The notes below the pieces were generated by a model. It ran no database searches. It saw only the letters and a list, made by a program, of their open reading frames with translations, and was not told the DNA's origin. 28,437 nt of DNA from IMG/VR virus record IMGVR_UViG_3300029266_001866, positions 1 to 28,437 of that record; one strand, given 5' to 3'. Position numbers and translations under genes: made by a program. Within the stretch, counting starts at the first letter, position 1. Each line of letters starts with the position of its first letter. This document shows, one piece after another, positions 1 through 18,100 of the stretch. This stretch comes from a virus.

Positions 1-420
1 AACTTCTGGAGTCTCATCTGTAGGAGCATCCAATGTTCCTGCAACAGTTGGTGTATCATCTGTAGGTGCTTCTACTGTTGTTGCAACTTCTGGAGTCTCA
101 TCTGTTGGAGAACTTAAAAGTACAGAAACTTCTGGAGTCTCATCTGTAGGAGCATCCAATGTTCCTGCAACTTCTGGTGTCTCATCGGTTGGAGCATCCA
201 ATGTTCCTGCAACTTCTGGTGTCTCATCGGTTGGAGAACTTATTTGAGTTGCAACTTCTGGTGTCTCATCTGTTGGAGAACTCAAAAGTACAGAAACTTC
301 TGGTGTCTCATCTGTTGGAGAACTCAAAAGTACAGAAACTTCTGGTGTCTCGTCAGTTGGCGAATTTAGAAGAACAGAAACTTCTGGTGTCTCGTCAGTT
401 GGCGAATTTAGAAGAACAGA
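1..420 (-). repeat. Ten in-frame 42-bp tandem repeats (SVLLSSPTDETPEV type)
   Basis: Ten consecutive 42-bp units fill bases 1-420 exactly and probably continue past the window edge. Each encodes 14 residues ending in PTDETPEV (one unit has PTDDTPTV), with a variable first half such as SVLLSS, SVLLNS, AGTLDA, ATQISS or ATTVEA. Units at 253-294 and 295-336 are identical at the base level, as are 337-378 and 379-420, which points to recent duplication. All units are in the reading frame of the large minus-strand gene. Confidence 0.95.
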
Positions 421-2763
421 GCTTTCTACAAACACTTCAGAATTATCGGCCGGTAAGACAGTACCATCTTCAGATGTATCAGAATTATCCGATGATGTAA
501 TAGTACCATCTTCGGATGTATCAGAATTATCAGAACTTGCAACAGATGAATCTATCGTTTCACTAGAATCTGTACCCGATTTTGTATCAGTATCTAAAGA
601 AACTTCTGAACTATCAGTAGATGTTGTTCCTGCATTTTCTTTGGTTTCTTCTAATATAGTTTCAATAGATTCATCTAAATCTGGTGCATCTACAGCTGTC
701 GCAATTTCTTTATCAATATCTTGTTCTTGATCGGAAAGATCTACGGTTTCTACAACATTTTCACTATCTCTATCAGATGTGGTTGTTACGTCTAATATAT
801 CAGCTATAGGTCTATCTAAAAAACTATTTCGTATTACTTCGCTGAGTGCTTCTTGTGTTAAAAGAGAAAATGTTTCGTTTATTATTTCTTGATCTACATC
901 CGATAAATTTTCATTTTCTAAAATATTATCAAATTCAGATTCTAATAAATTTACTATTTCGGATTGACTAATCGATTCCGTATCAGAAAGAGTTATATCT
1001 TCTGATACTTGTTCTAGGACGGCTGTTAAAAGATCTGTAGTTATTTTTTCGGATACGCTATCAACAGTCGCCAAAAATTCAGTTATTTTTTCCTCTATAC
1101 TATCAACGTCTGAAGTAGTAATATTTTCAGTTTCAGTTTCCGTACCCACATCAGATTCTGCTGATATTTCAGTTTCAGTTTCCGTACCCACATCAGATTC
1201 TGCTGATATTTCAGTTTCAGTTTCAGTACCCAAATCTGATACGGCAGAAATTTCGGTTTCAGTTTCAGTACCCAAATCAGATACAGCAGATATTTCAGTT
1301 TCGGTTTCGGTGGCTACATCGGATACATCAGATATTTCAGTTTCAGTTTCAGTACCTAAATCAGTTGTACCCACAACTTCCGTTTCAGTTTCCGTACCCA
1401 CATCAGACACAGCAGAAATTTCAGTTTCAGTTTCAGTACCTAAATCAGATTCTGCTGATATTTCAGTTTCGGTTTCAGTACCTAAATCAGATTCTGCCGA
1501 AACTTCTATTTCAGATACAGTACCTAAATCAGATACAGCAGATATTTCAGTTTCAGTTTCAGTACCTAAATCAGATACAGCAGATATTTCAGTTTCTGAA
1601 TCTGTGACCACATCAGACACAGCAGAAATTTCGGTTTCAGTTTCCGTGACTAAATCTGACACGGCAGAAATTTCGGTTTCAGTTTCAGTACCCAAATCTG
1701 ATTCGGTTGATATTTCAGTTTCTGACTCTGTACCCAAATCTGATACATCAGATATTTCAGTTTCGGTTTCAGTACCTAAATCAGATTCTGCCGAAACTTC
1801 TATTTCAGATACAGGATCAATATCTGACAATCCTAAAGTTTCATTATCCGAAACGGGATCAAGATCTGACAATCCTAAAGTTTCATTATCAGAAACGGAA
1901 TCTAATTCTGGCGTTGTTATAGTTTCTGCTGTGGCGATCACTTCTTGTATGAGAGTTTCAGTATCATATATATTTTCTTTTAAAATTTCATTTAAAGTAA
2001 ATATATCGGCCGTTTCTTCTATACCAAATTCAGTTATGGTGTGTGTTAATATCTCAGAGATATTTTCTCTAATTGTTGCGGTTACAATTTCTTTTATTTG
2101 TTCAATATCGTAACTAATAGATTCATTTTTTTCTACGACATTAACAATGAGAGATTTTATAGAGTTTATAACATTTGTCTGAGCCCTATAAGACACTTCC
2201 TGATTATCACTAGATCCTGGCCTACTAACTTCCGTATCAAATCCTGCAAACTGTGGATCAGAAAGTTCTACTATCCATCTAACAATAATTCCCGATATAT
2301 CTATGTCAAAAATATTTGGTTGGTTTGTATTGGGAATATAATCTGATACTGAAATTCTAATCGTATCTCCATTAACGACTGTTGTAGAATTTCCGACAGA
2401 TATACCATTTTTTTCAATATCCCCGCCATTAAATGTTATTGTAGCCATAGCGAACGGGAGATCTGACACCATAATAAGATTAGATTTTACTTTGATTTTC
2501 CAATAATCTGCAAAATATCCGAAAAGTTTCAAACCTTGTGTTTGAAAAGTATATTCGATGTTTCCTTCGGTAAAAACGGTATCCTGTGGAATGTTCCATC
2601 CATAAGGATATCTAAATTCATATAGATTATCATTGATAGAAAGACTAAACTCTTTATTTTGTGGATCTGTAGTTGGAACAACTATGTAATTGGAAGGCCT
2701 TTCGACCCCAATCCTAACTTTTTTTAAGTCATTAAATAAAAATATGTTGGCAATATCTGGCAT
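1..2763 (-). CDS. Giant acidic tandem-repeat protein, 3' end outside window (partial)
   Basis: Reading the complement from an ATG at 2763, the frame has no stop down to base 1, so at least 921 codons belong to one gene whose end lies outside. AAGAG six bases upstream supports this start. Residues 1-210 look beta-rich; around 100-140 the pattern (ATITFNGG, then VNGDTIRISV) resembles Ig-like repeats of adhesins, a weak match. Residues 210-286 look helical. Residues 287-552 are 19 tandem 14-residue units of the type LGTETETEISAVSD. Residues 553-744 are an acidic linker, 745-772 two units of DNSDTSEDGT type, and 782-921 ten units of SVLLSSPTDETPEV type. From residue 287 on I count only eight Lys/Arg in 635 residues, so the protein is very acidic and probably extended or disordered. 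I do not recognise a family. Its place at the end of a tail gene run suggests a fibre, whisker or decoration protein (inference). Confidence is high that it is coding, low on role. Confidence 0.85.
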   Translation of the reverse strand, partial: MPDIANIFLFNDLKKVRIGVERPSNYIVVPTTDPQNKEFSLSINDNLYEFRYPYGWNIPQDTVFTEGNIEYTFQTQGLKLFGYFADYWKIKVKSNLIMVSDLPFAMATITFNGGDIEKNGISVGNSTTVVNGDTIRISVSDYIPNTNQPNIFDIDISGIIVRWIVELSDPQFAGFDTEVSRPGSSDNQEVSYRAQTNVINSIKSLIVNVVEKNESISYDIEQIKEIVTATIRENISEILTHTITEFGIEETADIFTLNEILKENIYDTETLIQEVIATAETITTPELDSVSDNETLGLSDLDPVSDNETLGLSDIDPVSEIEVSAESDLGTETETEISDVSDLGTESETEISTESDLGTETETEISAVSDLVTETETEISAVSDVVTDSETEISAVSDLGTETETEISAVSDLGTVSEIEVSAESDLGTETETEISAESDLGTETETEISAVSDVGTETETEVVGTTDLGTETETEISDVSDVATETETEISAVSDLGTETETEISAVSDLGTETETEISAESDVGTETETEISAESDVGTETETENITTSDVDSIEEKITEFLATVDSVSEKITTDLLTAVLEQVSEDITLSDTESISQSEIVNLLESEFDNILENENLSDVDQEIINETFSLLTQEALSEVIRNSFLDRPIADILDVTTTSDRDSENVVETVDLSDQEQDIDKEIATAVDAPDLDESIETILEETKENAGTTSTDSSEVSLDTDTKSGTDSSETIDSSVASSDNSDTSEDGTITSSDNSDTSEDGTVLPADNSEVFVESSVLLNSPTDETPEVSVLLNSPTDETPEVSVLLSSPTDETPEVSVLLSSPTDETPEVATQISSPTDETPEVAGTLDAPTDETPEVAGTLDAPTDETPEVSVLLSSPTDETPEVATTVEAPTDDTPTVAGTLDAPTDETPEV
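448..531 (-). repeat. Two 42-bp repeats of a second type (DNSDTSEDGT)
   Basis: Bases 490-531 encode DNSDTSEDGTITSS and 448-489 encode DNSDTSEDGTVLPA, two 14-residue units in the same frame. A partial third copy begins with DNSEV at about 447. Sequence differs from the flanking blocks but the 14-residue length is the same. Confidence 0.8.
1108..1905 (-). repeat. Nineteen in-frame 42-bp tandem repeats (LGTETETEISAVSD type)
   Basis: The 798 bases divide exactly into nineteen 42-bp units without any indel. The typical unit is LGTETETEISAVSD. The first units in translation order diverge (LDSVSDNETLGLSD, LDPVSDNETLGLSD, IDPVSEIEVSAESD), the rest vary at a few positions (AV or AE before SD; LG, VG, LV or VV at the start). 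Each unit carries about four acidic residues and no basic ones. Confidence 0.95.
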
Positions 2764-2775
2764 TAATTCTCTTAC

Positions 2776-2807
2776 AAAAAAAGGGGAACCAAAGTTCCCC
2801 CTTTATT
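2776..2807 (-). terminator. Rho-independent terminator after the 1595-residue gene
   Basis: On the minus strand a perfect 7-bp stem, GGGGAAC and GTTCCCC with a TTTG loop (2783-2800), is followed by seven T (2782-2776). It lies 34 bases past the TAA at 2834 and 13 bases before the ATG at 2763. Its layout is that of an intrinsic terminator, so the acidic repeat gene would need read-through or its own promoter. Confidence 0.8.
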
Positions 2808-2811
2808 TATT
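2804..2811 (-). promoter_or_regulatory. Possible late promoter element, one mismatch
   Basis: Minus-strand AATAAATA differs from the T4 late consensus TATAAATA at one base. It sits immediately upstream of the terminator hairpin rather than after it, so a transcript starting here would carry the hairpin in its leader. The surrounding sequence is A/T-rich and a chance match is likely enough to keep confidence low. Confidence 0.3.
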
Positions 2812-2833: not shown

Positions 2834-5800
2834 TTATGTAAAGGTATTTTGTTCACTTGCAACCTGATCTCTTGGAGTAAAATCACTATATTGAGGTCTT
2901 ATACTACCACCCCGACATTGGATAAATATTCTCATACCATTACCATATGGTTTAGTTGAGTGCATACCTAAGTAAGTTCTAGAAACAGAATTTTCTGGTG
3001 TGTCAAATGCCCGTACACTAGGTGACGCTGTGGCCCCTGATCTCTGTCCTGTTGCCAAAGTTAAACCACCTTGATACACATTATGCCAATAATATTCTCT
3101 TCTATAATTTAATGCAAGTGGATCTCCAGCCGGATTGAGTCCGCCGGACTTACTGACATTTACGTCACTTCTAAGACCAGTTGCAGGATCTTCTCCAAAT
3201 TGAGTAGTGGTAAGAATTGTTCCAGCATCTGTATTATCTAACGAAGTAGCATAGGTCTTATCATTAGTATAGTTTCTGTAACCGCTGTGTTGCATGTGGT
3301 CCAAATCGTATTTTGATTCCGATGTTTTGATAATTCCGCCTTGAGTCGAACTACCAGCATTTGCAACACAAACAAGATCCAATTCAGCATTACTATAGAT
3401 AAATCTTTGGGTCGCCAAAGGAGTTGGAAAATTAAATATTACAGTTTTATCTTGTGTAATTGATAATTGTTCTACAGGATTTATACATGCTGGACTATCT
3501 ATTTGTGGAACCACAGCAGAAACATGATAATCCCACGGTTTGAATATATCATTTTCACGCACGACAAATCTATAAATGCCTTTGGCGACAGAATGTATAT
3601 CTTGCCAAATATTAGGAACATCTCTGTCTTCTGGAATTTTAATTAAATAAGTACCTTTTCCAGTGTCCTTTTCTTCAGTATCCGAATAATTTTCATAACT
3701 CAACTTCACAGTGATGCCATCTTGTATTGGAAGTGCGAATTTTAATGTATCATTTGACACATTATATGCATACATAGATTTGGCCACTCCAAAATATTCT
3801 AAACTAGAAGTTGTAGTACCAAATTGAATATCGCCATCACCGTCAATGTTATAGTTTTGTCCCAATATTGCTGAATCAGCCTCTGTTCCATTAACAAAAA
3901 CTTTGAGTCTATTTACTTCGAACAATGGGTGGGAGTTGATACCACTTCTACCATAATAGTTGGCATATTCATTATTATATCCAGCACCTTTCCATGAATA
4001 TTCGTATATAAAAGAGTCATCTTTTGGAAACATTTGTATGACAGCGGAAACTCTTGCGCCAATGCGTTCCGCGCTCTTGGCATTCTCTTTCGCAAAACAA
4101 ATCTCATCTCCAATCTCTGGAAGTACGATTTCTTTGTCTAAAACACTTCCCGCCCGACATAGAATTGATCCTTCAAGCTGAGTATTCTGAGATACTATTA
4201 TATCCTCAACTACTAGTCCCTGTGTCTTGCCACCATGAATACCGCGACCACCTACTGGTTGCAATTCTGATTCTGCGAAAGTATACGGTCCACCAAACGT
4301 ACTCAAAGTATCCTTCATCTGTCCAACCGATTCCGAAAACGTCAAAGGTTGCGAGTTCACCGCAAGGCCCACAGATAGGCTATCTTGAATGGCCCTAATA
4401 GCATAATTGGATCCCAAAGGTTCGTATGTGAGCGAAGTATAATAAATAATTGTGTGCGCTTCTCGTTGTACTAAAGCTTTAGCTTCGGTGGAATTGGGTT
4501 TAAAAATCGCCACAGCAGAGGAAAGGGACAATTCTCTTGCTTTTCCATCAGCATTTACTCTTGCAGGTTCTTCTGCCCTATTGATTATTTGAAAATCCTT
4601 TTCGGTATCTAATATAGTGTCTTGGCCAGTTGCACTTCTATGTCTCACTCTTGATAGTGTCAAACCAAGTCTTGTTGGCCCTTGCATTTGATTCCATGCC
4701 ATGACATAATTTGAGAGTCCGTTATCGGTATTTCCCAACAGACCCCAAACTGAAGTACTTCCAGGCGTAAGAGTTGTGCTTGTATATCGGTTGGCAATGG
4801 TGTCGCCCGTAATAAAATCTCCCACTGGAACAAACTTGGTATTCTCAACCTGTTGTGGATATCCTAACGACCATCCATCTCTATCGGTAACAGTGGACGC
4901 TTTTGTGGCACTGGTATGATTTGCAAAGGAAATATTAGCTGGATAATTCGCTGCGGTGATATCTGGGAATTGAAAGAAATCATTAACAGTAGTAAATCCA
5001 GATAGAGTCCCACCCGAACCAATTTGTGCGCCGTCTGTAAGTGGATATCCAGTAGTGCTCGATTGCAAATAATTTTGTCCACTTTGATAAGAACTACTTC
5101 TAACCTGTACTGGTCCAGCATGCGTAATAATTGTACTATCTAGTGGAATTCCGGGCCTTAATTTCCTACCATTTATATCAAAAATTTCCATTTCATCTAA
5201 TGTTTTCGATGACATCACCGTTTCGCCAGTTGCCGGATCCATTTTACTATCTACGGAAGCATAGAACCCTGTATTGTAGTTACTGGTTTCATCTGGTCTC
5301 TTTGCTGGCGCATATAAACAATGCACAGGTGATTTTCCATCCTCGAGTTCAATAGTACCAGACACATTATTTACATGTCTTTGTACTACAAACCAAGCAT
5401 AATCATCATCTTGATCTACTGAGGCCTGATCGTAACAGAAAAATCCTGTTCCATGATCAGTACATGTCAATCTGTATGCCATTGGGTATGATCCTTCGAT
5501 CCCCGACTCTGTTTTACCCTGTCTTCTAAAGAAACCACTTTTTGCTTTATTAGTTTCGGATGCAAAATTGAAATAAACCTCGCTTAGTTCGCCAGGTTGT
5601 CTGAAAATAGCTTGTTTAATACCATCGCGACCTTGTCCAGCTGTCATATCTCCATTATCTAAAATTTGTAATGGAGTTGCAACATTAACGTATAGGTACT
5701 CATCTCTAGAATCATAATAAAATCTCATACGCCACTTTTGTGGTTTGCGTTTATCTCTTACTGGCGGTGTCAAGTTGACAGTCGTAGGCATAGACGTTGT

Positions 5801-7621
5801 GGAAGGAGAAATGTCATCTGTCGAAGATAATAGATCTGTCGCCTTTTCAGATTCTACAACAAATAAATCTCCAATTCGACGAATACAAGACATAACATCT
5901 CTATGATTTTGCTGACCATTGGTACTTATATGGACATTGATTTTGTCTTCTGCTTTTAAATGAGGATATATGATATTATAGGGTTGTGATTCAAAACCAC
6001 CTTCATTGGCCACCATTTCTTTATGATTTGCATTACTAGTAGGAGATCCTGCATCATAACTAATTTCCCATTTACTTTTCTTGATAGCCAGTCTCCAAAA
6101 CTTTGGTTTATATGTAAGTTTTGTGGCATCGGTGAAGGTATTTACTTCATCAGAAAATCTTTCATCTGGGGCCCCTGTATTGGGAGTCATGGTACAAACC
6201 GCACAACCTGCTGGGTGGACATTGTAAGCTCTACCAGAATCTGCCGCGCCGCCCGATCCATCGTCATTGCCGACATCTGTAATTAGCATAGTACCATCAC
6301 CATATGGTTCTATAATTCTTTTTCCCACATCTGTAATTTGAAATCCTGTATCAACAGTTAATGACAAATTTGTTTGCGTATCTGTCAAAGTAGCAATAAT
6401 ATTATCCATAGAGGCGCCAACCGTAAGGTCTGTTAATCCACTACCAGAAAAGGTTAGTTTTGCAATACCTTGTTCTAGTGTAGAAAACGCAGAAGTATAA
6501 TAATTTGAATACGGATGTAAACATAAATCAGTCGCTAAACTCCTCAACATTCCATTAGGAGTATTAAGATCGATATTATTGTCTATGTGATATTCTAATA
6601 TAACATCTTGATTTAAGTCAAAACTTTCAGATCTCCAAATAGCACTACCAAAATCTAAATCTACTTGTGGTTGCGCTGCAATATTAGTAACATTTAGAAC
6701 AACTTGATTTGATGTACTGTCTGCATCAATCCCACCAATTTGAGACTGTGGTATGGTGATTGTATCGCCGGCCGAAAATCCTTCGCCGTATCCCATTAAA
6801 ACAAATTTTGTAACATTACCAGAATTGTCAACATATAATTGTCCCGAAAACCCTGTCAAAGATCCACTACCGGAAGTAGTCAACGGCTGGTCTGTATTGT
6901 GTTTAATAAACCATACACCAGGCCTATGTCCTGCCAAAATAGTGCCAGTACCGTTTACATTAGTAGCTGTTACAGCACCTACGCCATTGACTTGCTGCGG
7001 TCCATGAAATCTTGTTACAATAAAATTGCCTTCTATAGGAGTGTCATCTAATTCAGCGCTGATGGCAGGAAATCCAGCTGGAGCCAATGAATATCCAATA
7101 CCACCATCAATAATTTGGATAGTACTTATTCTACCAGAACCATCTGAAAATGCACGAATATTAGCTGGTTTAAGATCATTAAGTGAAAACAAACCGTTAG
7201 CGACTCCGCCTCTAATACAAACATTAAACACAGTAGACGGCGAGTATCCAACCCCGCCATTTGCAATACTAATACCTGTTACTGCACCAGTTAGAGATAG
7301 AGTTTCCACATTCAGTTCAGCCTTATCCGCTAAATCTACAGGTGAAAACATATATGCTAATGGTTTTTTAATTGTTGTTATAGTACCTGAGATGACTTTT
7401 CTTTCTTCTGACCGTACTTCATAAGGCGGAATTCGATCAATTTGTTTTGTTACATCTTGACCCAATCCTTGCGCTGGTTTATCTAGACGTGTAAATGTCT
7501 GGTTAAATTTATTGGTAAATTGAAATCTTTGATGAAATTTCTGTTGTGGAATTGATATCATTTCGTTTCTCTGGATAGAGAAACCGCCCGACAGATACTT
7601 CTGTTCTAGTGAAGTTGGCAT
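2834..7621 (-). CDS. Large virion structural protein, paralogue A (1595 aa)
   Basis: Start ATG at 7621 has AAGGAG seven bases upstream and a perfect late promoter 28 bases upstream. The protein shares three stretches with the two genes before it: an N-terminal GFSIQRN motif (residues 13-19, shared with paralogue B); a central module from RKPQKWR (about 622) through DQDDDYAWFVVQRHVN to SPVHCLYAPAKRP (about 770); and a C-terminal module from RFVVREND (1351) through NPVEQLSITQ to GNGMRIF near residue 1570. Residues 120-180 hold two GGxGY motifs (NGGVGYS and DGGIGYS) of the kind repeated in phage tail proteins. No transmembrane or enzyme motif is visible. It is probably a virion (tail or fibre-network) protein, by position after baseplate genes and by its late promoter; the exact role is unknown. 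A hairpin terminator follows. Confidence 0.85.
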   Translation of the reverse strand: MPTSLEQKYLSGGFSIQRNEMISIPQQKFHQRFQFTNKFNQTFTRLDKPAQGLGQDVTKQIDRIPPYEVRSEERKVISGTITTIKKPLAYMFSPVDLADKAELNVETLSLTGAVTGISIANGGVGYSPSTVFNVCIRGGVANGLFSLNDLKPANIRAFSDGSGRISTIQIIDGGIGYSLAPAGFPAISAELDDTPIEGNFIVTRFHGPQQVNGVGAVTATNVNGTGTILAGHRPGVWFIKHNTDQPLTTSGSGSLTGFSGQLYVDNSGNVTKFVLMGYGEGFSAGDTITIPQSQIGGIDADSTSNQVVLNVTNIAAQPQVDLDFGSAIWRSESFDLNQDVILEYHIDNNIDLNTPNGMLRSLATDLCLHPYSNYYTSAFSTLEQGIAKLTFSGSGLTDLTVGASMDNIIATLTDTQTNLSLTVDTGFQITDVGKRIIEPYGDGTMLITDVGNDDGSGGAADSGRAYNVHPAGCAVCTMTPNTGAPDERFSDEVNTFTDATKLTYKPKFWRLAIKKSKWEISYDAGSPTSNANHKEMVANEGGFESQPYNIIYPHLKAEDKINVHISTNGQQNHRDVMSCIRRIGDLFVVESEKATDLLSSTDDISPSTTSMPTTVNLTPPVRDKRKPQKWRMRFYYDSRDEYLYVNVATPLQILDNGDMTAGQGRDGIKQAIFRQPGELSEVYFNFASETNKAKSGFFRRQGKTESGIEGSYPMAYRLTCTDHGTGFFCYDQASVDQDDDYAWFVVQRHVNNVSGTIELEDGKSPVHCLYAPAKRPDETSNYNTGFYASVDSKMDPATGETVMSSKTLDEMEIFDINGRKLRPGIPLDSTIITHAGPVQVRSSSYQSGQNYLQSSTTGYPLTDGAQIGSGGTLSGFTTVNDFFQFPDITAANYPANISFANHTSATKASTVTDRDGWSLGYPQQVENTKFVPVGDFITGDTIANRYTSTTLTPGSTSVWGLLGNTDNGLSNYVMAWNQMQGPTRLGLTLSRVRHRSATGQDTILDTEKDFQIINRAEEPARVNADGKARELSLSSAVAIFKPNSTEAKALVQREAHTIIYYTSLTYEPLGSNYAIRAIQDSLSVGLAVNSQPLTFSESVGQMKDTLSTFGGPYTFAESELQPVGGRGIHGGKTQGLVVEDIIVSQNTQLEGSILCRAGSVLDKEIVLPEIGDEICFAKENAKSAERIGARVSAVIQMFPKDDSFIYEYSWKGAGYNNEYANYYGRSGINSHPLFEVNRLKVFVNGTEADSAILGQNYNIDGDGDIQFGTTTSSLEYFGVAKSMYAYNVSNDTLKFALPIQDGITVKLSYENYSDTEEKDTGKGTYLIKIPEDRDVPNIWQDIHSVAKGIYRFVVRENDIFKPWDYHVSAVVPQIDSPACINPVEQLSITQDKTVIFNFPTPLATQRFIYSNAELDLVCVANAGSSTQGGIIKTSESKYDLDHMQHSGYRNYTNDKTYATSLDNTDAGTILTTTQFGEDPATGLRSDVNVSKSGGLNPAGDPLALNYRREYYWHNVYQGGLTLATGQRSGATASPSVRAFDTPENSVSRTYLGMHSTKPYGNGMRIFIQCRGGSIRPQYSDFTPRDQVASEQNTFT

Positions 7622-7648
7622 TTATGGTCTCCTTAAATGTTTTAATTC

Positions 7649-7656
7649 TATTTATA
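7649..7656 (-). promoter_or_regulatory. T4-type late promoter TATAAATA
   Basis: Exact minus-strand TATAAATA lies 28 bases before the ATG at 7621, followed by AAGGAG (7634-7629). The upstream side reads TATTTTTTATAAATA, identical over 15 bases to the promoter at 12230. Late promoters of T4-like phages are recognised by the phage gp55/gp33 factors; those genes are not in the window. Confidence 0.8.
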
Positions 7657-7669
7657 AAAAATACTTCGA

Positions 7670-10600
7670 TTAGGACTGAGTCATCGGCGGCGGAGTACCC
7701 TCTTCAACATCGCTATGGCGAATAGACCCACCAGTGACTTGCAAAAAGATTCTCATACCATTACCATTAGGTAAAGTAGATGGCATTCCTTCATATTTTC
7801 TTTTATGTTTTTTCCATATATAAAGTTTATCATCTGGCCCGGTGTGGCCCCCATATGCACCAGCTGCAACAGCAGAGACACTAAATCTATTTGCCGCGGA
7901 ACCTGAAGAATCTGCAGCTGAGAAGGACTGAACCATTGCCAGTTGAGCTGGAGTGGAAGCAGTTGTGTTTTTACCATCAGAATCGGAATACTTATCTATT
8001 TCTACATAACCAGCTTGAGTACTAAAATCAGCAGAAGAAACACAAATCAAATCAAGTTCGCTTTCTGGATAGTAGAATCTCTGACTTGTTAATTGAGTTG
8101 GAAAAGAGAATACAAAATTTCTACCTTGAGTAATTGAAAGTTGTTCTTGTGGATTGATAATAGCATGTGAATCTATTTCGTGCATTGTTGCAGAAACATG
8201 ATAATCCCAAGGTTTCAATACATCCTTTTCTCTTACAATAAACCGATTTATCGACTTAACTTCATTCAAATTTGTCTCTGGGAAATTCCTATCTTCTGGT
8301 CTAGAAATAATGAAAGTTCCTTGAGAAGGATTTGCAGTCTGATAATTCACCATAGAAATTGAGAATGTTGTTCCTGCCCGTGGCGAAATTTTGAAGAATA
8401 GAGATTTATTCCAAAAATCATACATATATTCGTTGCGTTCGACACTATTAGTCCAAATAACATCGCCAGGCAATTTATCTTTAAGACTATTAATATTTGC
8501 AGATTGTACCAAATTACTACTTGTAAATGTCCATTCGGGGAAATCTCCGTTTGCAGCTGTCCAACCAGTGGGAGTGACACCCAGCTGAAAATAATTTTGC
8601 CATTGGTGGAAAAACTTTCTACCAGTAGAAGCATTATTTGTATTAAATGTAATTTTGTTTACACCAGCACCTGTTGCTGTTGGGTCCATGCCAGGAATTA
8701 ATTGATTGAAGTTAGGAAGAGTAGTAGAATCTGGATTGGGAATTTTAAAATCGGCCCCAATAATTGTAACGCCTGCAGCATCCATCGATTGCAAAAATCT
8801 TGGAACTGTAGTGGGATCGCCACGCATTACCCACTCATCATATGTAAGAACATATGACTGTGTATCTCTTTTAATTTCTATGTCATCTAATGCCACTACC
8901 ATAGATTCGAATACTTTATTTACATTGTCCGGTTGAGCAGTATATAAAATATCTAACAGAGCTGAGTCACCACTCTTGAAACTAGACATATTTACATTTT
9001 CGGCCGCAGTACCAATTCCACTACCAGATGCAGAAGCATTTTTAAATGTAGACATTCTTTCTAATAGATTTGATGGCCAAACAATATTTTCGGACATCTG
9101 GGAAGCAGTAGTATTTCCTAACGACCAAGACGCAGCAGGAGATGTTGTCGTCAACATATTGGCACCAGTACTTGTCGGTACTCTAATGAAAGCAGGCGGG
9201 CCTGCGACTTGAAAGATAGATCCTGGCGATGGCGAAGCATCTAACGCAATAGAAGTATCTCTGCGTCTAGGTAATGAATTAAATCCTGTTATTGCCAAAT
9301 CCGTAATTCTTGATTCTGGTCCTGTTTTTCCCTCCACAGGAAGAGTTGCCAACTTACCTTTTGCTACTCTGGTCGCATCTGTTATGGTTGTGTAAGGAGA
9401 TGTTGTACCCGCATGTGCGGTAAAATCAGTAGAAACATCGCCTGTAGTCGAGGAGCCCATTTCCAATTCCAATCCACCAGCTGCAAGAATACTCGGCAAC
9501 ACAGCGGGATCTGTTGTTGAGTCATACAACTCGCCAGCTCCGGTGGCACCAAGGTCTTGTGATGAAACAATTGTCAACATACCGCTTGTAGGATCCCAAA
9601 ACTTAATTCTGCCACCCCAATTATCTAAAGTAAGCGGATCAGAATCGGGGTCGATTTCCATCATGACATAATGACCTACCAAAAATTCGGGTAGGAGTCC
9701 TGTCCCAGAGTCTCTTTCGATACGGAAAGTCCATACCTTTTCAGACCAGATATTTGTAGTGCCAGCACCTATATTACCTGTAATTCCTCTATATAAATCT
9801 GTTTTTATATCTGTTGTGGATAACGTGGTTGGTGTGACTTGTCCTTTAGCGGTACTAGAAGCATACCCATAACCATTAAAATCAATAGCATTTATCAATC
9901 CATCGAAAAAAGTCGACTCTCTATTCACATAAATTGTTGGTGCTTCTGTCTTATATAGATTACCTAAAGAACTATAGATAGCATCTGGTTTTGACAAATC
10001 TTCGGTATCTTTTGTAGCAAAATATGGAGTCAAAGACGAAACATCGACAGGTCTCTTTGATGGCGAATAAACACAATGAACAGGTGATTTATCTGTAAAT
10101 TCTGGTTCACCTGTAGTTTGGTTGACGTGTCTCTGTACTACGAACCAAGCATAGTCATCGTCTTGATCTACTGAAGATTGATCAAATACGAAAAGAGCCA
10201 TACCATGATCGGTACATGTCATTTTATATGTCATTGGATACGTGCTTGCAATATTTTGTTCTATTTGGCGCTTTTTAAACCACTGCGACTTTGCCCGAGA
10301 AATAGACAAAGTGGCTCCACGTCCAACCCCAGAGGTTTTATAAACATCACACAGTTCGCCAGGTTCTCTAAATATCGGAGATTTTACCCCATCTCGTACA
10401 TCCATAGCAGAAATAGTGCCGTCATCTCTTAATTGATATTCTGTTCCAACATTTACTTTGATAGACAATGTTGACGGATCCCACTCAAACCTTACCCGCC
10501 ATTTCTGTGGTTTTCTATTACTTGCGGGGTGATTGCTGTTGGTCCAACTAAGATTGCTGTCCGACAAAAGATCGACGCCTTTATCTGACTCTATCAAAAA

Positions 10601-12202
10601 TTTGTCGGTTATTGTTCTCAGTTTATTTTTAATGTCTATTTCGTTAGAAGAAGATAGAGGGGCTGGGAAAATTAGTTTAAATGGATTTGCAAATTCTTCA
10701 TTTTCCAACATAGACAAATTAAACAAATCGCCATCTTTGATTTTTACAATATTTATGTGTCTTGCACTTGTAGCGGGAATGACGCCGGTATTACTTACAC
10801 CAACAATAGTATTGGCGGCATCCGCTTGTGCGGTCACGATATGCGGGTCTACATTGAGTACCGGAGCATGCCAACCAAAGTATGCATTTTGTGGATTATT
10901 GGGGTCCATTGAGGCGTTTGAAATGCCGCGAAATGCCTTACTAAATGTCCAATATTTGTTGCAATCGGCATCTGTTATAGTGTTATCTATAACTTGATCA
11001 TCATGTGGAAATGCAAGATCTGCTGCGCTGCCAGAGCCAGTATCGGCGGTAACTTGATTTGGTCCCAATCCTTTTCTTCCTACCAATGCACCAAAAGGAA
11101 CATCTATAGATTTCTTCCAGATATAAGAAATAGTTATATTAACATTAGTCAAATCGGCAACCCATGTCATCTGATCGGTTCTTTTTAATTTAAAAGTTGC
11201 TTTTCTAGTAACATCATCGGAAGATACTACCCAATCATTATTTGATAATAATTGATTGTTTATAGAAACTCTAAATTCTCCAGCACCCAAATCAGATTCC
11301 ACTAATGGAAAATCATTCATAAGTTCGACATATGTAGTTCTGTCAGTTGCGTCTATGTTTGGAAAAGTAGAGGCAATGTTTAGGGCCATGTTACTTTCTC
11401 TATGTTCTTTTACAACTTTCCATAAATATTTTACATTTCTTTGAGTGGCTTGAATTCCTTCACCAGTAAAAACATCATTGTATTCTATCGACAATGGATT
11501 TTTATATACCCTAATTTGATCAACACCAGCGGCTTGAGGCATACCACCCTTAGTTGGGTCGACCTGAGCGACATTATTACCACCTACTATAGTGCCTAAA
11601 GCAATATCAGCTTCAAATTCTGACCCTGTTTCTCCGGTTGTTCCCAAGTTAATTGTTTTTTGATTACCGAAATGGGCTTTGAAAATTTCAGCACTATTAA
11701 ATGGATGGAGACAGAAATCGTGTGCAATTTGAAACAACAATCCGCCGTCACCTTTAAATTTCGATACATCTTCTATATAAGAAATTTCTACCTTTTCCCC
11801 AGACATGGGAGCCGACTGTGCATTAAATACGATGGCACCAAATTCTCCATATTTAGAATCATATTCTACCGACCCACGGCCTGCAACTAAAGAACCTTCT
11901 GTATATAAATCTTCTTTAAATGCTTGATCTTCTGTTACAGCGACTGCGTTGGTTTGTGTCCCAACACCAGTTGCAGTGGTGTTTTCAATATTTACACCTA
12001 GAGAAGCGGATCCTCTTTCTAGGTGAATTCTAACTTCACCCATGCGGATATCCCAACCCCATGATTTATCTTTAAAATCGGGTAATGATCTTAATACATA
12101 AACAGAATTTCCTGCTATGGCATTATGAACTTCGTATTGTTGCCTGTGAGGCACTTGTATAACGTCATTTCTCTGAATGCTAAATCCGCTTGCAATAGAC
12201 AT
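7670..12202 (-). CDS. Large virion structural protein, paralogue B (1510 aa)
   Basis: Start ATG at 12202 has AGGAG six bases upstream and an exact late promoter 28 bases upstream. It aligns by eye with paralogue A at the N-terminus (GFSIQRND at residues 6-13), in the middle (RKPQKWR near 564, DQDDDYAWFVVQRHVN, SPVHCVYSPSKRP near 707) and at the C-terminus (RFIVREKDVLKPWDYHVSA from about 1320, NPQEQLSITQ, GNGMRIF near 1480). The stretches between these modules differ greatly, so the pair looks like a conserved scaffold with variable insertions. No signal peptide or catalytic motif is seen. It probably forms part of the tail or fibre network; no T4 counterpart is recognised. The stop is 48 bases before the next start, with a promoter between. 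Confidence 0.85.
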   Translation of the reverse strand: MSIASGFSIQRNDVIQVPHRQQYEVHNAIAGNSVYVLRSLPDFKDKSWGWDIRMGEVRIHLERGSASLGVNIENTTATGVGTQTNAVAVTEDQAFKEDLYTEGSLVAGRGSVEYDSKYGEFGAIVFNAQSAPMSGEKVEISYIEDVSKFKGDGGLLFQIAHDFCLHPFNSAEIFKAHFGNQKTINLGTTGETGSEFEADIALGTIVGGNNVAQVDPTKGGMPQAAGVDQIRVYKNPLSIEYNDVFTGEGIQATQRNVKYLWKVVKEHRESNMALNIASTFPNIDATDRTTYVELMNDFPLVESDLGAGEFRVSINNQLLSNNDWVVSSDDVTRKATFKLKRTDQMTWVADLTNVNITISYIWKKSIDVPFGALVGRKGLGPNQVTADTGSGSAADLAFPHDDQVIDNTITDADCNKYWTFSKAFRGISNASMDPNNPQNAYFGWHAPVLNVDPHIVTAQADAANTIVGVSNTGVIPATSARHINIVKIKDGDLFNLSMLENEEFANPFKLIFPAPLSSSNEIDIKNKLRTITDKFLIESDKGVDLLSDSNLSWTNSNHPASNRKPQKWRVRFEWDPSTLSIKVNVGTEYQLRDDGTISAMDVRDGVKSPIFREPGELCDVYKTSGVGRGATLSISRAKSQWFKKRQIEQNIASTYPMTYKMTCTDHGMALFVFDQSSVDQDDDYAWFVVQRHVNQTTGEPEFTDKSPVHCVYSPSKRPVDVSSLTPYFATKDTEDLSKPDAIYSSLGNLYKTEAPTIYVNRESTFFDGLINAIDFNGYGYASSTAKGQVTPTTLSTTDIKTDLYRGITGNIGAGTTNIWSEKVWTFRIERDSGTGLLPEFLVGHYVMMEIDPDSDPLTLDNWGGRIKFWDPTSGMLTIVSSQDLGATGAGELYDSTTDPAVLPSILAAGGLELEMGSSTTGDVSTDFTAHAGTTSPYTTITDATRVAKGKLATLPVEGKTGPESRITDLAITGFNSLPRRRDTSIALDASPSPGSIFQVAGPPAFIRVPTSTGANMLTTTSPAASWSLGNTTASQMSENIVWPSNLLERMSTFKNASASGSGIGTAAENVNMSSFKSGDSALLDILYTAQPDNVNKVFESMVVALDDIEIKRDTQSYVLTYDEWVMRGDPTTVPRFLQSMDAAGVTIIGADFKIPNPDSTTLPNFNQLIPGMDPTATGAGVNKITFNTNNASTGRKFFHQWQNYFQLGVTPTGWTAANGDFPEWTFTSSNLVQSANINSLKDKLPGDVIWTNSVERNEYMYDFWNKSLFFKISPRAGTTFSISMVNYQTANPSQGTFIISRPEDRNFPETNLNEVKSINRFIVREKDVLKPWDYHVSATMHEIDSHAIINPQEQLSITQGRNFVFSFPTQLTSQRFYYPESELDLICVSSADFSTQAGYVEIDKYSDSDGKNTTASTPAQLAMVQSFSAADSSGSAANRFSVSAVAAGAYGGHTGPDDKLYIWKKHKRKYEGMPSTLPNGNGMRIFLQVTGGSIRHSDVEEGTPPPMTQS

Positions 12203-12229
12203 TAAGGTCTCCTATCTAGTTTTTCTTTA

Positions 12230-12237
12230 TATTTATA
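12230..12237 (-). promoter_or_regulatory. T4-type late promoter TATAAATA
   Basis: Exact minus-strand TATAAATA lies in the 65-base gap before the 1510-residue gene, 28 bases from its ATG. The downstream leader ends in AGGAGACC, as does the leader of the next paralogue, so promoter and leader seem to have been duplicated along with the gene. Confidence 0.8.
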
Positions 12238-12267
12238 AAAAATATTTTGTTGATTTTGTTTTTGCAA

Positions 12268-14616
12268 TTAAGGCGTATATTCAACTCCAATTGCATCGTT
12301 TACATCTAATATTACATCGCTATTGTGAATATTTTGGCCATTGACTAATGCCATAATCCGCATACCGTTTCCAAATGCGGCTGTAGACCGCATACCTTGA
12401 TATCTGCGCTTATCTGTGTTTGTTCCATCATATTTGTAAGTTGTCATAGGAATATTACTAGATTCAGCAACCACTTCGGCAGATGAGAAACAAATCAAGT
12501 CCATCTCTTCTTTTGGATACATAAATCTTTGTGTAGTCAGTCCTGTAGGAAATGTTATAACAAATCTGTTTTCGTCTGTAATAGATAATTGTTCGAGTGG
12601 GTTTATAACTGCGTTACTATCTATCTGATGTCGTGTGGCAAATTTATGAACATCTGTAGGTTTTAAAATGTCAAATTCTCTTGCAACAAATCTCCAAATA
12701 TTTTTTGCAGTATATTCATCTGCAAGATAATCTTCTCTATCATATGGACTAAGAATATAGAATGTTTTACTATTATCTAAATTTGATAAGTTGTATGTGT
12801 TACCTCGTTCGTCATAAACTGTATCTACTACTGTTTGTGCATTTTGTAAATTGGCCGCATCCTGAGAAAAGTATATTCCCGCATCTCTGGAATATAATGA
12901 ATCTCTTGAACAAGAATACATTACATGTACTGGAAATTTAGAACCTTCATCGACTCTTGGTATACCAGTTTCATTATTTACAGTTCTTTGAATTGCGATC
13001 CATGAATAATCGTCTGCTTGATCTGAAGATGCATCATCGTGAATATATAAAAATATCCCTTTTTCTGTCATAGTCAATCTATATGAAAATGGATATGTTC
13101 CTTGCAATACTGGTTCTGTTTTTGGAAATCTTTTAAACCAACCCGAACCCTTTTTCTTATTTCTAAATCTGAGAGATCTATTGTTTATATATTTTTTATG
13201 TCCCGATGATGAAGTTGGCGCAGTAGCAGTTCCCCATAAGGCGGAGTTAGCAGCGGCAAGAGTGGTAGTAGGAACATATACTGTTAATAATGGAAATTCA
13301 GAAAATGTTTTTGCAGAAGATGTGCCCACTCCCGAAGTAACACTGCCCCCACTAACATATTGTTGAGCAACAGTCCAACCACTACCGTTTAGTGGTATGG
13401 TACAATTGGAATTCATATAAACAGAAAATTGACCAGTATTTCCCGAAATAGGTTTTACATAATATGTGTTGCCGTTTAGTGGATTTATAGTCGGCGAAAT
13501 ACTAGAAAATGCTACTGGTTGTCCCTGCGTATAACCATGAGGGCTGGTTGTGGTTACTACTACAGGATTTGTGTTAGAGACACCTGATATACTTATCGAA
13601 GTACCAGTGTTTGCGATTGCTCCATCATATTGATTTGCTGCATATTGATCTAAAAACACTGGATAGTAAAATAGTTGATTTGGGTCTCCACCGATCAAAG
13701 TACCCTCTACATAATAAGGCCCTGTATTAGAAGGATCGGACAACACAGTAACGTCCTCATAAGTCAAATCTACACACTCGCCAGGAAATCTTAAAATAGA
13801 TGTATCGACTGTCGATCCATTTTCTAAGGTGATTATTCCATTTGAATCCGATTGTGGAGATGAAATATCACCAGAAGCTAATAGTTGATTTGAACATCCC
13901 ACATTGACTTTGAACCATCCATACATAGGATTTGGAATACCTATTTGATCTTCCCAACCAGAAGTATTCGGAAATCCAGAATTAGGCAAAATAAAGGCAT
14001 CAGGTCTATATACACTGTCGGGATAATATGAATTTGGTTTGAATGTTTGTTCATTTATTTGATTTCCACCAGCATAATGATAGTATCCTAAAGAATCCAT
14101 TCTCAAATTTAGTTGATACAATTCATCTGCAAATTCTCTGTCTCCGGTCGCAGTCGAAAAATTATAATAAAGTCTAGGTCTTAAATCTAATTCGAATCTA
14201 ATTCTATAATTTTGGTCCAATCCTCTAGAAACTGTACCGTTGTTGGGTAAACTTTCGGTTGTTGTTTGGAAAAGCATAACGTGCTGGGCAGGGGCATTTG
14301 GTGTAGACTGACTATAATTTGCCGATCCTGCATAATTCCCAGAAGATGATGGGCTAGTAATTCCAATTTCTTGAAAAAATTGTTTTGTTATGGGTGTCCC
14401 AACATGATCGACTAATTCATTACCGGCATCTGGCGAACCATTAAACATTCCCCATTGGGTTTGCATATCTATAGCTAAGGCCATCATCATACCGCCAGTG
14501 ACAACTTCATTTCCATCTATAGAAGCTGTTCCTTCTATGGTCGTAAATCCGGTTCTTATTCTACTCATTCCATAATTCTTGAATGTAGAAAGATTTGTTA
14601 TTTGCCTTTGAGCCAT
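12268..14616 (-). CDS. Virion structural protein, paralogue C (782 aa)
   Basis: I place the start at ATG 14616 (MAQRQITNLS), ten bases after AGGA; a GTG two codons upstream (14622) is an alternative four bases after AGGA. The C-terminal half matches paralogues A and B: KTEP, YPFSYRLTMTEKGI and DDYSWIAIQRTVNNETG (about 500-555), FPVHVMYS (about 563), then WRFVAREFDILKP, NPLEQLSIT, FPTGLTTQRFMYP and GNGMRIM (about 643-757). It lacks the GFSIQRN N-terminus and is half as long. Residues about 343-428 hold a beta-rich insert (SPHGYTQGQPVAFSS, then NGNTYYVK) like the 'E1 FCCH-like' domain often found in marine phage virion proteins. It is probably the compact member of a three-protein structural family; role in the particle unknown. 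Confidence 0.85.
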   Translation of the reverse strand: MAQRQITNLSTFKNYGMSRIRTGFTTIEGTASIDGNEVVTGGMMMALAIDMQTQWGMFNGSPDAGNELVDHVGTPITKQFFQEIGITSPSSSGNYAGSANYSQSTPNAPAQHVMLFQTTTESLPNNGTVSRGLDQNYRIRFELDLRPRLYYNFSTATGDREFADELYQLNLRMDSLGYYHYAGGNQINEQTFKPNSYYPDSVYRPDAFILPNSGFPNTSGWEDQIGIPNPMYGWFKVNVGCSNQLLASGDISSPQSDSNGIITLENGSTVDTSILRFPGECVDLTYEDVTVLSDPSNTGPYYVEGTLIGGDPNQLFYYPVFLDQYAANQYDGAIANTGTSISISGVSNTNPVVVTTTSPHGYTQGQPVAFSSISPTINPLNGNTYYVKPISGNTGQFSVYMNSNCTIPLNGSGWTVAQQYVSGGSVTSGVGTSSAKTFSEFPLLTVYVPTTTLAAANSALWGTATAPTSSSGHKKYINNRSLRFRNKKKGSGWFKRFPKTEPVLQGTYPFSYRLTMTEKGIFLYIHDDASSDQADDYSWIAIQRTVNNETGIPRVDEGSKFPVHVMYSCSRDSLYSRDAGIYFSQDAANLQNAQTVVDTVYDERGNTYNLSNLDNSKTFYILSPYDREDYLADEYTAKNIWRFVAREFDILKPTDVHKFATRHQIDSNAVINPLEQLSITDENRFVITFPTGLTTQRFMYPKEEMDLICFSSAEVVAESSNIPMTTYKYDGTNTDKRRYQGMRSTAAFGNGMRIMALVNGQNIHNSDVILDVNDAIGVEYTP

Positions 14617-14648
14617 TTGCACCGATTCCTAATATTTTTAGTTTTCAT

Positions 14649-15116
14649 TTATTTATATGATATTTTTTTGTTAAATTCTGTTTCGTCTTGAATAAATTCT
14701 TTGTCCTTGTATTTATTCTCAATATCATATACGAAAGTTTTTGTATTACTCTCAGCCAGCTCAAAATTATGATATTTAACATATCTTTTCTGTAGTGCTT
14801 CTGCACCCGTCACTGTATACACTAACTTGCATTCGTTGTCAACCGCTAATTTGCACAGTTCATCTATACAGATTTTTAATGCCTTATGCGAATCCCTATC
14901 CGATATATTTTTGTCTCGCACTACCCATTCCATAAAACCGAAAGCAGTTCCTTGGCCGATATACAACCCGCCACCACAAATCGGTGTATCTTCTTTTTCT
15001 ATCATTATTCCTAATGGTGGCAAACACTCTATTGGTACAATTCCAAAATCCCATTGTTGCCACCATTTTGTTAAAAATTCATAATCTGTTTTCAAATTCC
15101 ATTTTCTAAAATTCAC
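14649..15116 (-). CDS. GNAT-like N-acetyltransferase (155 aa)
   Basis: The start is GTG at 15116, overlapping the TGA of the preceding fibre gene in GTGA, which suggests translational coupling; no other start fits before residue 38. The layout matches small GNAT proteins: N-terminal helices with WWQQW, strands with PICGGGLYIGQG and GFMEWVVRDKN, a helix (HKALKICIDELCKLAV), then VYTVTGAEALQKRYVKYHNFEL, like the typical 'N..a..lYeklGF' end of the fold. The canonical acetyl-CoA loop R/Q-x-x-G-x-G/A is not clear; the corresponding stretch reads RDKNISDRDSHK. Activity is therefore uncertain. Members of this fold sit beside tail fibre genes in other marine phages as I recall; a role in modifying the fibre or a host molecule is inference. 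Confidence 0.6.
   Translation of the reverse strand: MNFRKWNLKTDYEFLTKWWQQWDFGIVPIECLPPLGIMIEKEDTPICGGGLYIGQGTAFGFMEWVVRDKNISDRDSHKALKICIDELCKLAVDNECKLVYTVTGAEALQKRYVKYHNFELAESNTKTFVYDIENKYKDKEFIQDETEFNKKISYK
14650..14657 (-). promoter_or_regulatory. T4-type late promoter TATAAATA
   Basis: Exact minus-strand TATAAATA overlaps the TAA stop of the acetyltransferase gene and lies 34 bases before the ATG at 14616. It would drive paralogue C separately from the fibre/acetyltransferase pair. Confidence 0.75.
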
Positions 15117-18100
15117 TTGTTCATAATCTCCATTGTTTTTTGTTTTGACGTAGAATCTTGATCTCGCCAGTGATTAAAATATTCATCTCCGACTAACTGC
15201 AATTTTTCTTTTTCGTGCATTTCAAAATAATCGGTAAAAGTGATTCCTTCAATTTCGAGTCTACGATTTTCCGTACCGAAATTGTATGTAGTCACAACTT
15301 CATCCGAAATAAAGTTACTATCGGGAGAATCTTTCACTTGAATCCAATTACCATTTTCTAAAACCATATGCGATCCCGAAACTTTGATACCATGATAATC
15401 ATGCAAATCATCGGATAGAAATTTGCCACAAGCAAATATTCTGCCGCCAGTTTTAACACTTTCGCCTAGATCTATTGTTTCTATAGCCTTTTTTGTTCCA
15501 TCTTCCATTGTCACCATTGTGCCTGCAAGGAAACATAAATTAATATCCCACCACTTATCTTTTTTCTTCACCCATGTATGCGCTACAGTTGTACCCATAC
15601 CATTGTGTTGAACGCCTCTATAACCACAACTAAAATAAGTAGTATTTTCCACGGTTGTGTCATATACACTATATGCCAAGGATTGCCAATCAGATTTAAT
15701 CCAATAGATTGATTTACTAATTAAACCACCACGATCATTGAGTCGATCCGAATTTCGTGCAATCTCTTTCCAATCACTTTTCAGTCTAAAGTTTGAATGA
15801 ACCGTAACCTCTTCATCATCAGTGCCAAACTGATGCTGCCAGTAGAACCTCTCGTACAACTCAGGAAAATTACCCACATATTCAAACTCGGCCACCGCAC
15901 CCGTAGTTCCACCGCCGTCGAATTCCGCTTTTGTGATAATTCGTCCAAGGCGGTGAAACATGACCAGACGCATATAATCTTCGCCAAGTCTGACTGTCTC
16001 CGAGCCAAAGAGTTCTTTTATTCTTCCGCCGCTGATAGTCCAATCTCGGTGCCACGAATAAGGCCAAAATGATGGGCCATCGATCGGATGTCCAGTGGTT
16101 CCAAAAACAAGAGATTTTGATTCAGGCCCGTCCGTAACTAGGTCAATATTGTGGAATAATTCTGGGAAATTTGCAGGGGTTAGTTTTTTAGGAGTTGAAA
16201 TAGATCCGCCTTTAATTGTCCAGTTACTATTATATTCTACTAAAGTAAGTCCGTTGCCATTTTGATAATTGATTAAGTGAGCTTCGGGATGACGTTGTAC
16301 ACCGGAAGCGTTTGAGTTAGTTTTATCAATTTGAACAACGGCCGGACTATTCCCACTTAAATAAAACCCGCCCATTCCTTCATATGTAACTGCCATATCG
16401 GCACTTGCGAACGAGTTCATAGCACCACTATCGTCAAGTTGCATTTGATTTCTATTTCTCACATAAGATGCAACTCTATTATTCGATTCAACAGACCGGC
16501 CCGTTCCATCTAAATTCTGTGGTGTTAATACATATCTTTCCTGAGAGGCCATTCTAAATTCTACAACACTTTGACTTTTGCTTAATGTAAATGAAGCTGG
16601 TCCGCCGCCTCTATTTGTTGCAACAGCAGTTGACGCGACTTTTGTAAATGTCGCTGTGTTACTATAACTGCTTCGATGCGTCAATTCAAATTTAACAGGA
16701 CATGTTGAAATAAACCAATTATCAATATCTTCAAAATCAGTTTGATCTCTGGGTCTATATGATCCCGATACCTGTTCAACAGTGAGCGAAGTATCTGGAT
16801 TATTATATAATCCTTCTAAAGCAGGACTATTTAAAAATATTTTTCTTCCTAATACGTCTACCTTTACTGATTTTTTCCCCAAGTGACAAAATCTGGTTTT
16901 CATTGGCACATCGCCATTTTTTCCAATTCTAGCACTAAATCTTAACCGATACATTTTTGGATTATTTACATCGTTAGATCCCATTACATCTACACTTCTA
17001 GCAGAAGTCATCGATCCTTGAAAAGTTGTTACTCCGCGAACTGAAACACTTTTTGCATATGAAGATGCTAAAATATCACCAGAGTCATCTTCTAATATCC
17101 AGCCTGGGTGAGTCAATTTTGAATGAGAATGTCCATGAGATCCTATTATCTGAACGATACCATCACCGCCATAACCAGATTCGGAAATTTTTGAGCTCTG
17201 TGTGAAAGGAAATGTTTGCATTTCAATATCGTTGAATTGATTTTTACTATTTTTGCCCCCAGCCCCAACAGTAATATTTATTATATCCCCACCGTTTACT
17301 TCAAAGTCTCCGAAATATCCAGTAATACCAGCTTGTCCTGCTTCAGTGCCTGTATATCCGCTTTCTTCTGATCCGCGGCCGCCGTGTTGACCAGCTGCGC
17401 CGCCAACGCCAAAGGATATATCAGACACTTGAGTTATCTCAGTTTGGCGGGCCCCAGAATATGTGTATTCAATACCCGGCGCTCCACCTGTGCCAAACAA
17501 AGAATCTTCGCCGAGACCAGACTCACGGTTTACCGCATGACCACGATTATCTATATATGATACTTTGTGCAAAATGTTAATAGGAAAATTGTTTCGACCA
17601 AAAGAAATACTACCGTTAGCGGGAACCATTGTGTTTGATACGATATATTCTGTTGGTGTATCAGATGATTTATTTTCGTACGAAGTTGGAAATCCGCCAC
17701 TTACAATTGGGTTTTCTGGTGTAGATAATGTTTGATCGTATAAATTGCCTGTTTTAATGACTCCACCTACTTCAGAGACATCCCCACCGCCGGCGCCGCC
17801 TCTTAAATTTATAGCTGCGTCTTCCATCCAAATAGTAGAATCTCTACCATCATAACCTAGTTCAACAATACCTTTTGTTTTTCTATTTTTTAATTCATCT
17901 CCAGATACAATAGTTTTTTGGACGCTACCAGAACCACCGCCGGAAGATATCATAATTCTAAGTCTTTTGAATTTTTTGGGAACGATCATTCGCCACTCGC
18001 CGGGAGCAAAGCTTGTTGTAGGTAATCCCAAATCTCTAGCAACAGTAGAAGTATTCTCTAAAATTCTTTCGTATCTAAGATCCTCCCCCAATTCACTACC

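Follow-up and report, generated by a model that had tools for sequence, protein, structure and literature searches.

A position-conserved family of hyperacidic 14-residue-repeat proteins in the baseplate and fibre region of uncultured T4-like phages

A previously unannotated family of hyperacidic proteins, built largely from 14-residue repeats, occupies a conserved position in the tail gene cluster of uncultured T4-like phages. One member lies at the edge of the window, the stretch of 28,437 bp that constitutes an entire public IMG/VR record, where the complement of 1-2763 is open from an ATG at 2763 to the contig edge and encodes 921 residues without a stop. Because the window is the whole of the public record, the gene is truncated by the contig end. 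Judged at slightly better than an even chance, the family comprises late tail-tip or fibre components in which the repeats would provide a flexible, polyanionic tether.

The composition of the visible protein is extreme. Residues 287-921 include 179 Asp or Glu residues, eight Lys or Arg residues (K 5, R 3) and no His, and are dominated by Ser (91), Thr (106), Glu (106), Asp (73) and Val (58). Given the Lys/Arg frequency of three neighbouring proteins (0.080), eight or fewer basic residues would be expected by chance with a probability of ~2e-14, and the Asp/Glu fraction of 0.28, against 0.110 in the same neighbours, with a probability of ~9e-33. The sequence-only reading that drew attention to this gene had described an open frame lacking a stop, only eight basic residues in the last 635, a content made largely of Ser, Thr, Glu, Asp and Val arranged in regular repeats, and a composition unusual for a phage structural gene; its count was exact, the repeats proved to form two arrays that both have a period of 14 residues, and the protein is indeed far removed from its neighbours in acidic and basic content. 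Long open reading frames on the plus strand across the gene (267 residues in the window, and a 405-residue antisense frame in the related locus L002) were discounted as antisense shadows of the repeat sequence, and a Pfam RNA_pol_A_CTD match within the repeats (20.4 bits, under its cut-off) was set aside as compositional.

The window protein (1-2763, minus strand) occupies the same position as its homologues in related contigs and is divisible into six parts, all encoded on the minus strand. An N-terminal Ig-like beta domain (residues 1-172; 2248-2763), conserved in 16 sequences and recognized by AlphaFold and a BFVD structural match, is followed by a predicted helical segment (residues 190-284; 1912-2196), which in the model of a complete relative, L004, appears as low-confidence helices at 198-278. 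Repeat block A (residues 285-550; 1114-1911) consists of ~19 units of the SDLGTETETEISAV type and is predicted to be unstructured in L004. A second predicted helical segment (residues 551-665; 769-1113), the L004 counterpart of which is helical over 610-762 at low confidence, separates the two blocks and leads into a Ser/Thr/Asp/Glu linker of imperfect 14-residue units (residues 666-773; 445-768), where windows spanning 673-757 have a period of 14. Repeat block B (residues ~774-921; 1-444) comprises at least ten visible units of the SPTDETPEVSVLLN type and is cut by the contig edge.

The surrounding genes place this protein in a T4-like baseplate module, in agreement with the earlier assignment to a phage tail gene cluster. 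Upstream of the acidic gene lie three paralogues on the minus strand, of 1595 residues (2834-7621, directly upstream, with a C-terminal part matching phrog_12249), 1510 residues (7670-12202, phrog_12249) and 784 residues (12268-14622, phrog_12249), which have C-terminal blocks in common. Farther along the same strand are a homologue of the VrlC protein of T4-like cyanophages and pelagiphages (19929-26930), the best matches of which are from Kyanoviridae, and a homologue of the baseplate wedge protein gp8 (26963-28414, phrog_438). The remainder of the window encodes a 397-residue protein, a 1127-residue protein and a small protein. The PHROG label "tail sheath" attached to phrog_12249 is doubtful for the paralogues at 2834-14622, which are probably not sheath proteins, since a 203.8-kb relative (G001) carries a separate, true sheath gene (phrog_23). 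G001 is T4-like, with terminase, major head protein and tube genes, and its cluster runs in the order gp5, gp6, gp8, VrlC, paralogues, acidic gene and fibre-type gene, with a fourth paralogue also present. A fibre-type gene follows the acidic gene in relatives, and in L022 the second gene after it encodes a PAAR-CHAP tail-tip protein. In pelagimyophages, the host-recognition cluster sits downstream of VrlC; the acidic gene occupies the same region as the host-recognition and tail fibre proteins of these phages and of cyanomyophages (PMC7029224).

Several other features of these genomes were observed. The 1127-residue protein has a likely C-terminal Hint (intein-like) domain (15113-15580, minus strand), with a Pfam Hom_end_hint match at E 0.001, which is under the cut-off, and a PDB match to NEQ068 at E 2.6e-4. 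The tail cluster also contains a 155-residue phrog_17252 protein (14649-15116, minus strand) that resembles an acetyltransferase by eye only, with no Pfam match. G001 carries a permuted tmRNA gene of the alphaproteobacterial type (L065:9363-9782, ~129.4-129.8 kb) with the tag ANDNFAPSEFALAA, matching Rfam RF01849 at 123 bits and RF04321 at 124 bits, with six tRNAs alongside; the type of this tmRNA suggests an alphaproteobacterial host. A search of nine records for psbA found none.

The boundary between the acidic gene and the upstream paralogue is itself distinctive. The upstream stop and the ATG are separated by a GC-rich hairpin with a trailing T run (2780-2804, minus strand); directly upstream of the hairpin is the octamer AATAAATA (2804-2811, minus strand), a putative late promoter by its resemblance to TATAAATA, the T4-type late promoter sequence. 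Each of the 13 representatives compared has a hairpin directly before the acidic gene, with altered stems; in this small alignment, five pairs have at least one two-sided change. An octamer similar to TATAAATA is found upstream of the hairpin in most representatives, and such octamers likewise precede the two upstream paralogues. A comparable hairpin was present in the scanned upstream stretch of only 3 of 156 G001 open reading frames, a count that leaves out the G001 acidic gene, the hairpin of which lies inside an extended ORF call. Together, the hairpin and octamer make it probable that a separate late transcript begins with the acidic gene, where the baseplate genes give way to the fibre genes.

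Protein searches of a viral contig collection with the upstream 1510-residue paralogue as the query yielded 32 loci. Each of the 27 other contigs that reach this place, representing ~12 lineages, has an acidic ORF after the same two large paralogues. Fifteen contigs read through the whole gene, while 13 of the 28 related contigs that enter it stop within it, all past residue 340, beyond the N-terminal domain. The simplest explanation for the missing stop in the window is that short-read assembly breaks in the repeats. When the L004 C-terminus and the downstream gene were used to look for the rest of the window gene, only known contigs were returned. Complete members have 1155, 1141, 2325, 1877, 1663, 772, 998, 1157 and 683 residues, masses of 75-247 kDa, a pI of ~4 (about 4.05) and net charges of -115 to -547, and they retain the same domain order: an Ig-like N-terminal domain first, then helical segments and acidic arrays, and a C-terminal module last. 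This module of ~45 residues, KGIIxMRxGExKLYxLxP...IGPFIDRxxxNR, is conserved by alignment and is absent from the window protein, as the contig edge precedes the end of the gene; the full product of the window gene would probably have some 1000-1200 residues and finish with this IGPFIDR module. In L028 the N-domain and the acidic part are encoded by two ORFs, and L020 has a broken frame; both may represent sequence errors or real splits. The sequence-only reading, which knew of no family for this protein, anticipated that a stop just beyond the edge and no homologue in related phages would weaken a structural role; instead, a position-conserved family with complete members of 683-2325 residues was found, and no Pfam or PHROG family covers the window protein or its relatives. 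Searches with the N-domain found no such protein in a collection of named phages, an N-domain profile scan of viral contigs returned none beyond those already known, and literature searches found no description of an acidic protein of this kind.

Structure prediction divides the protein sharply. The N-domain, which spans ~115-190 residues across the family, was modelled by AlphaFold, as the earlier reading had proposed for residues 1-286, and is all-beta; between residues 91 and 140, the means of 10-residue blocks are 91-96. In the model of complete L004, the N-domain is folded, the helices are of low confidence, the arrays are without secondary structure (pLDDT ~30), and four short C-terminal strands have low confidence (pLDDT ~50-56). 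Comparison of the N-domain with the PDB revealed only generic Ig-like sandwiches (best E 0.019) and no strong match. In BFVD the top match was a 1330-residue protein (E 3.3e-6), which, because its length is identical, we infer to be BN7874_240 of phage NCTB; further viral structural matches (E 0.004-0.05) came from Dickeya JA11, PaBG and Erwinia SNUABM_5.

BN7874_240 (1330 residues) belongs to phrog_29316 of the NCTB and Yoloswag ("Lupandier") jumbo phages, whose members are encoded at the same place, after phrog_12249 proteins. An Ig-like domain carrying the motif IIKNGSSVGASTTLSNGDS is common to both groups; against BN7874_240, hhalign gave E 1.7e-6 with 37% identity across 54 columns. Unlike the acidic family, phrog_29316 proteins are without hyperacidic arrays and end in WxWxQxIPC...GY(I/L)xGG instead of KGIIxMRxGE..LYxLxP..IGPFIDR, and the phrog_29316 profile found no match in the window protein, L004, L022 or L032. 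Because both the profile and the C-terminal features fail, the acidic protein was not counted as a member of phrog_29316, despite the common domain and genomic place. A likeness in working plan is offered by the staphylococcal Sdr/Clf adhesins, which combine an Ig-like fold with a long, disordered, acidic Ser/Asp repeat stalk, and SdrC was a weak structural match of the N-domain (rank 17, E 0.069). The acidic family differs from these adhesins in its phage origin, its 14-residue units and its C-terminal module in place of a wall anchor, and, as read from the sequence, it has neither SD dipeptide repeats nor an LPXTG anchor.

The period of the arrays is exact. Autocorrelation in 112-residue windows of 14 proteins gave 189 significant windows, all with a period of 14 (121 windows) or 28 (68 windows). 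Unit sequences vary by lineage, from SDLGTETETEISAV and SPTDETPEVSVLLN in the window to GEDESTTLVTGGET in L022, DTGDSADVGEVDPQ in L025, GQDDTTDDTVTPNV in L032 and SIETDSSNTQANNL in L028. Even several hundred residues apart, positions in the degenerate L008 arrays are identical more often at multiples of 14 than at other lags (0.15 vs 0.10 at 421-700). Phase alignment of the last arrays of nine lineages revealed a common degenerate motif, the score of which was reached by none of 200 column-permuted nulls, with acidic residues at positions 3, 13 and 14, Ser/Thr at 5, a hydrophobic residue at 8 and Pro/Gly at 11. The gene after the acidic one also encodes 14-residue repeats, which are non-acidic (L068:6839-12031 and L032:19396-22644; for example, YPVQKPTYEGIQSQ), and this periodicity was seen directly downstream in both G001 and L032. 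A weak 14-residue periodicity was observed in Salmonella phage Sen-NF (L036:12733-16557), and no acidic 14-residue array was found in the five named Kyanoviridae regions scanned (BUCT-ZZ01, Mosig, Melnitz-3, S-SM1 and HTVC008M).

Length changes follow the same register. Between close relatives, insertions and deletions inside the arrays are of 14, 28 or 42 residues, that is, whole 42-bp units gained or lost. Exceptions were found in L020, where a 13-residue gap falls at the frame break, and in L025/L030, whose gaps of 8, 48 and 60 residues we assigned to regions outside the clear arrays. The dN/dS ratio was 0.13-0.25 after the N-domain, a range that gene conversion between units could bias, and 0.07-0.17 within the N-domain, apart from one pair at 0.58 that reflects only three changes. 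By this measure, the arrays are under purifying selection.

A register of 14 residues is not required of a purely disordered spacer, and the arrays may therefore bind a partner or adopt an ordered form that is invisible to monomer prediction. The alternative that survives best, which we regard as possible but unlikely, is that the unit is a true structural repeat and that oligomeric or Ca/Mg-bound arrays fold into a regular fibre (a solenoid, beta-spiral or roll), yielding a rigid rod of variable length. The exact period of 14 or 28 despite differing unit sequences, the register held over several hundred residues of degenerate sequence, the motif common to nine lineages and the periodicity of the neighbouring non-acidic gene all favour this alternative. 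Against it, the AlphaFold monomer shows arrays without secondary structure, no Pfam repeat family matches, and tandem duplication of 42-bp units alone keeps the period; because such duplication requires no selection, the register speaks for a structural constraint but does not prove one. YadA-type head repeats, which form a 14-residue left-handed beta-roll, have the same period, but the acidic arrays have no Pfam match to Hep_Hag, are composed of D/E/S/T-rich units and have no predicted strands. Somewhat less likely still is the more specific proposal that the arrays represent a new fibrous protein with a fixed register and freely changing letters, perhaps stabilized by Ca/Mg or oligomerization, that would form a tail-tip filament of evolvable length.

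An intracellular or assembly-only role, as a late acidic chaperone, scaffold or DNA mimic that is not retained in the virion, appears improbable. Hyperacidic proteins can act as DNA mimics or scaffolds, but this gene sits in a baseplate/fibre operon, its Ig-like N-domain is common to a large tail-cluster protein, and its product, at 75-247 kDa and of variable length, is unlike compact DNA mimics. The suggestion that the protein is a spacer setting tail or fibre length by unit number is very hard to credit: although the units are tandem and length differs among phages, close relatives differ by whole units, and the candidate tape measure, by inference another gene near the tube gene, encodes 783-904 residues compared with the 3.4-fold range of 683-2325 in the acidic protein. 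A tape measure would be a long helical chain matching tail length, encoded beside the tail tube gene, whereas the acidic arrays are not helical in the L004 model and the length of the candidate does not follow that of the acidic protein. Neutral, functionless expansion or assembly artefact, the least probable account, might be proposed because tandem repeats expand easily and 13 of 28 contigs break here, but it is already contradicted by array dN/dS of 0.13-0.25, the C-terminal module conserved beyond the arrays, the 15 contigs that cross the gene and its retention in ~12 lineages.

The tether remains the best reading, supported by gene position, domain order, predicted disorder, selection, period, N-domain kinship and the octamer and hairpin; a structural role in the virion is suggested specifically by gene position and the N-domain. 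An extended whisker or fibre, or a charged surface decoration, as had been suggested from the sequence, is still the best guess for this unusual protein of a baseplate/fibre cluster. The protein would be expressed late as part of the tail tip or fibre complex, and its Ig-like N-domain would dock on the baseplate or fibre assembly made by the neighbouring paralogues. The several hundred to two thousand residues that follow, mostly acidic 14-residue units, would form a long, flexible, strongly negative chain in the virion, with the conserved module, placed by alignment, at its far end. Such a chain may act entropically, as a polyanionic tether or bristle holding the end module off the tail and contacting surfaces through divalent cations. 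Points that weigh against the tether are that the jumbo phage counterpart is without acidic arrays, that nothing in the PDB matches the N-domain fold strongly (best E 0.019) and that the C-terminal strands are of low confidence.

This work adds to the record a position-conserved family that belongs, in T4-like phages of environmental metagenomes, to the end concerned with host recognition, and it accounts for the many such contigs that end at this place. It also provides a clean case of a repeat that keeps its unit length and acidity while its letters change. If the arrays are virion bristles, they would give phages a novel means of controlling contact with the host surface; if they fold, they would constitute a new fibrous repeat.
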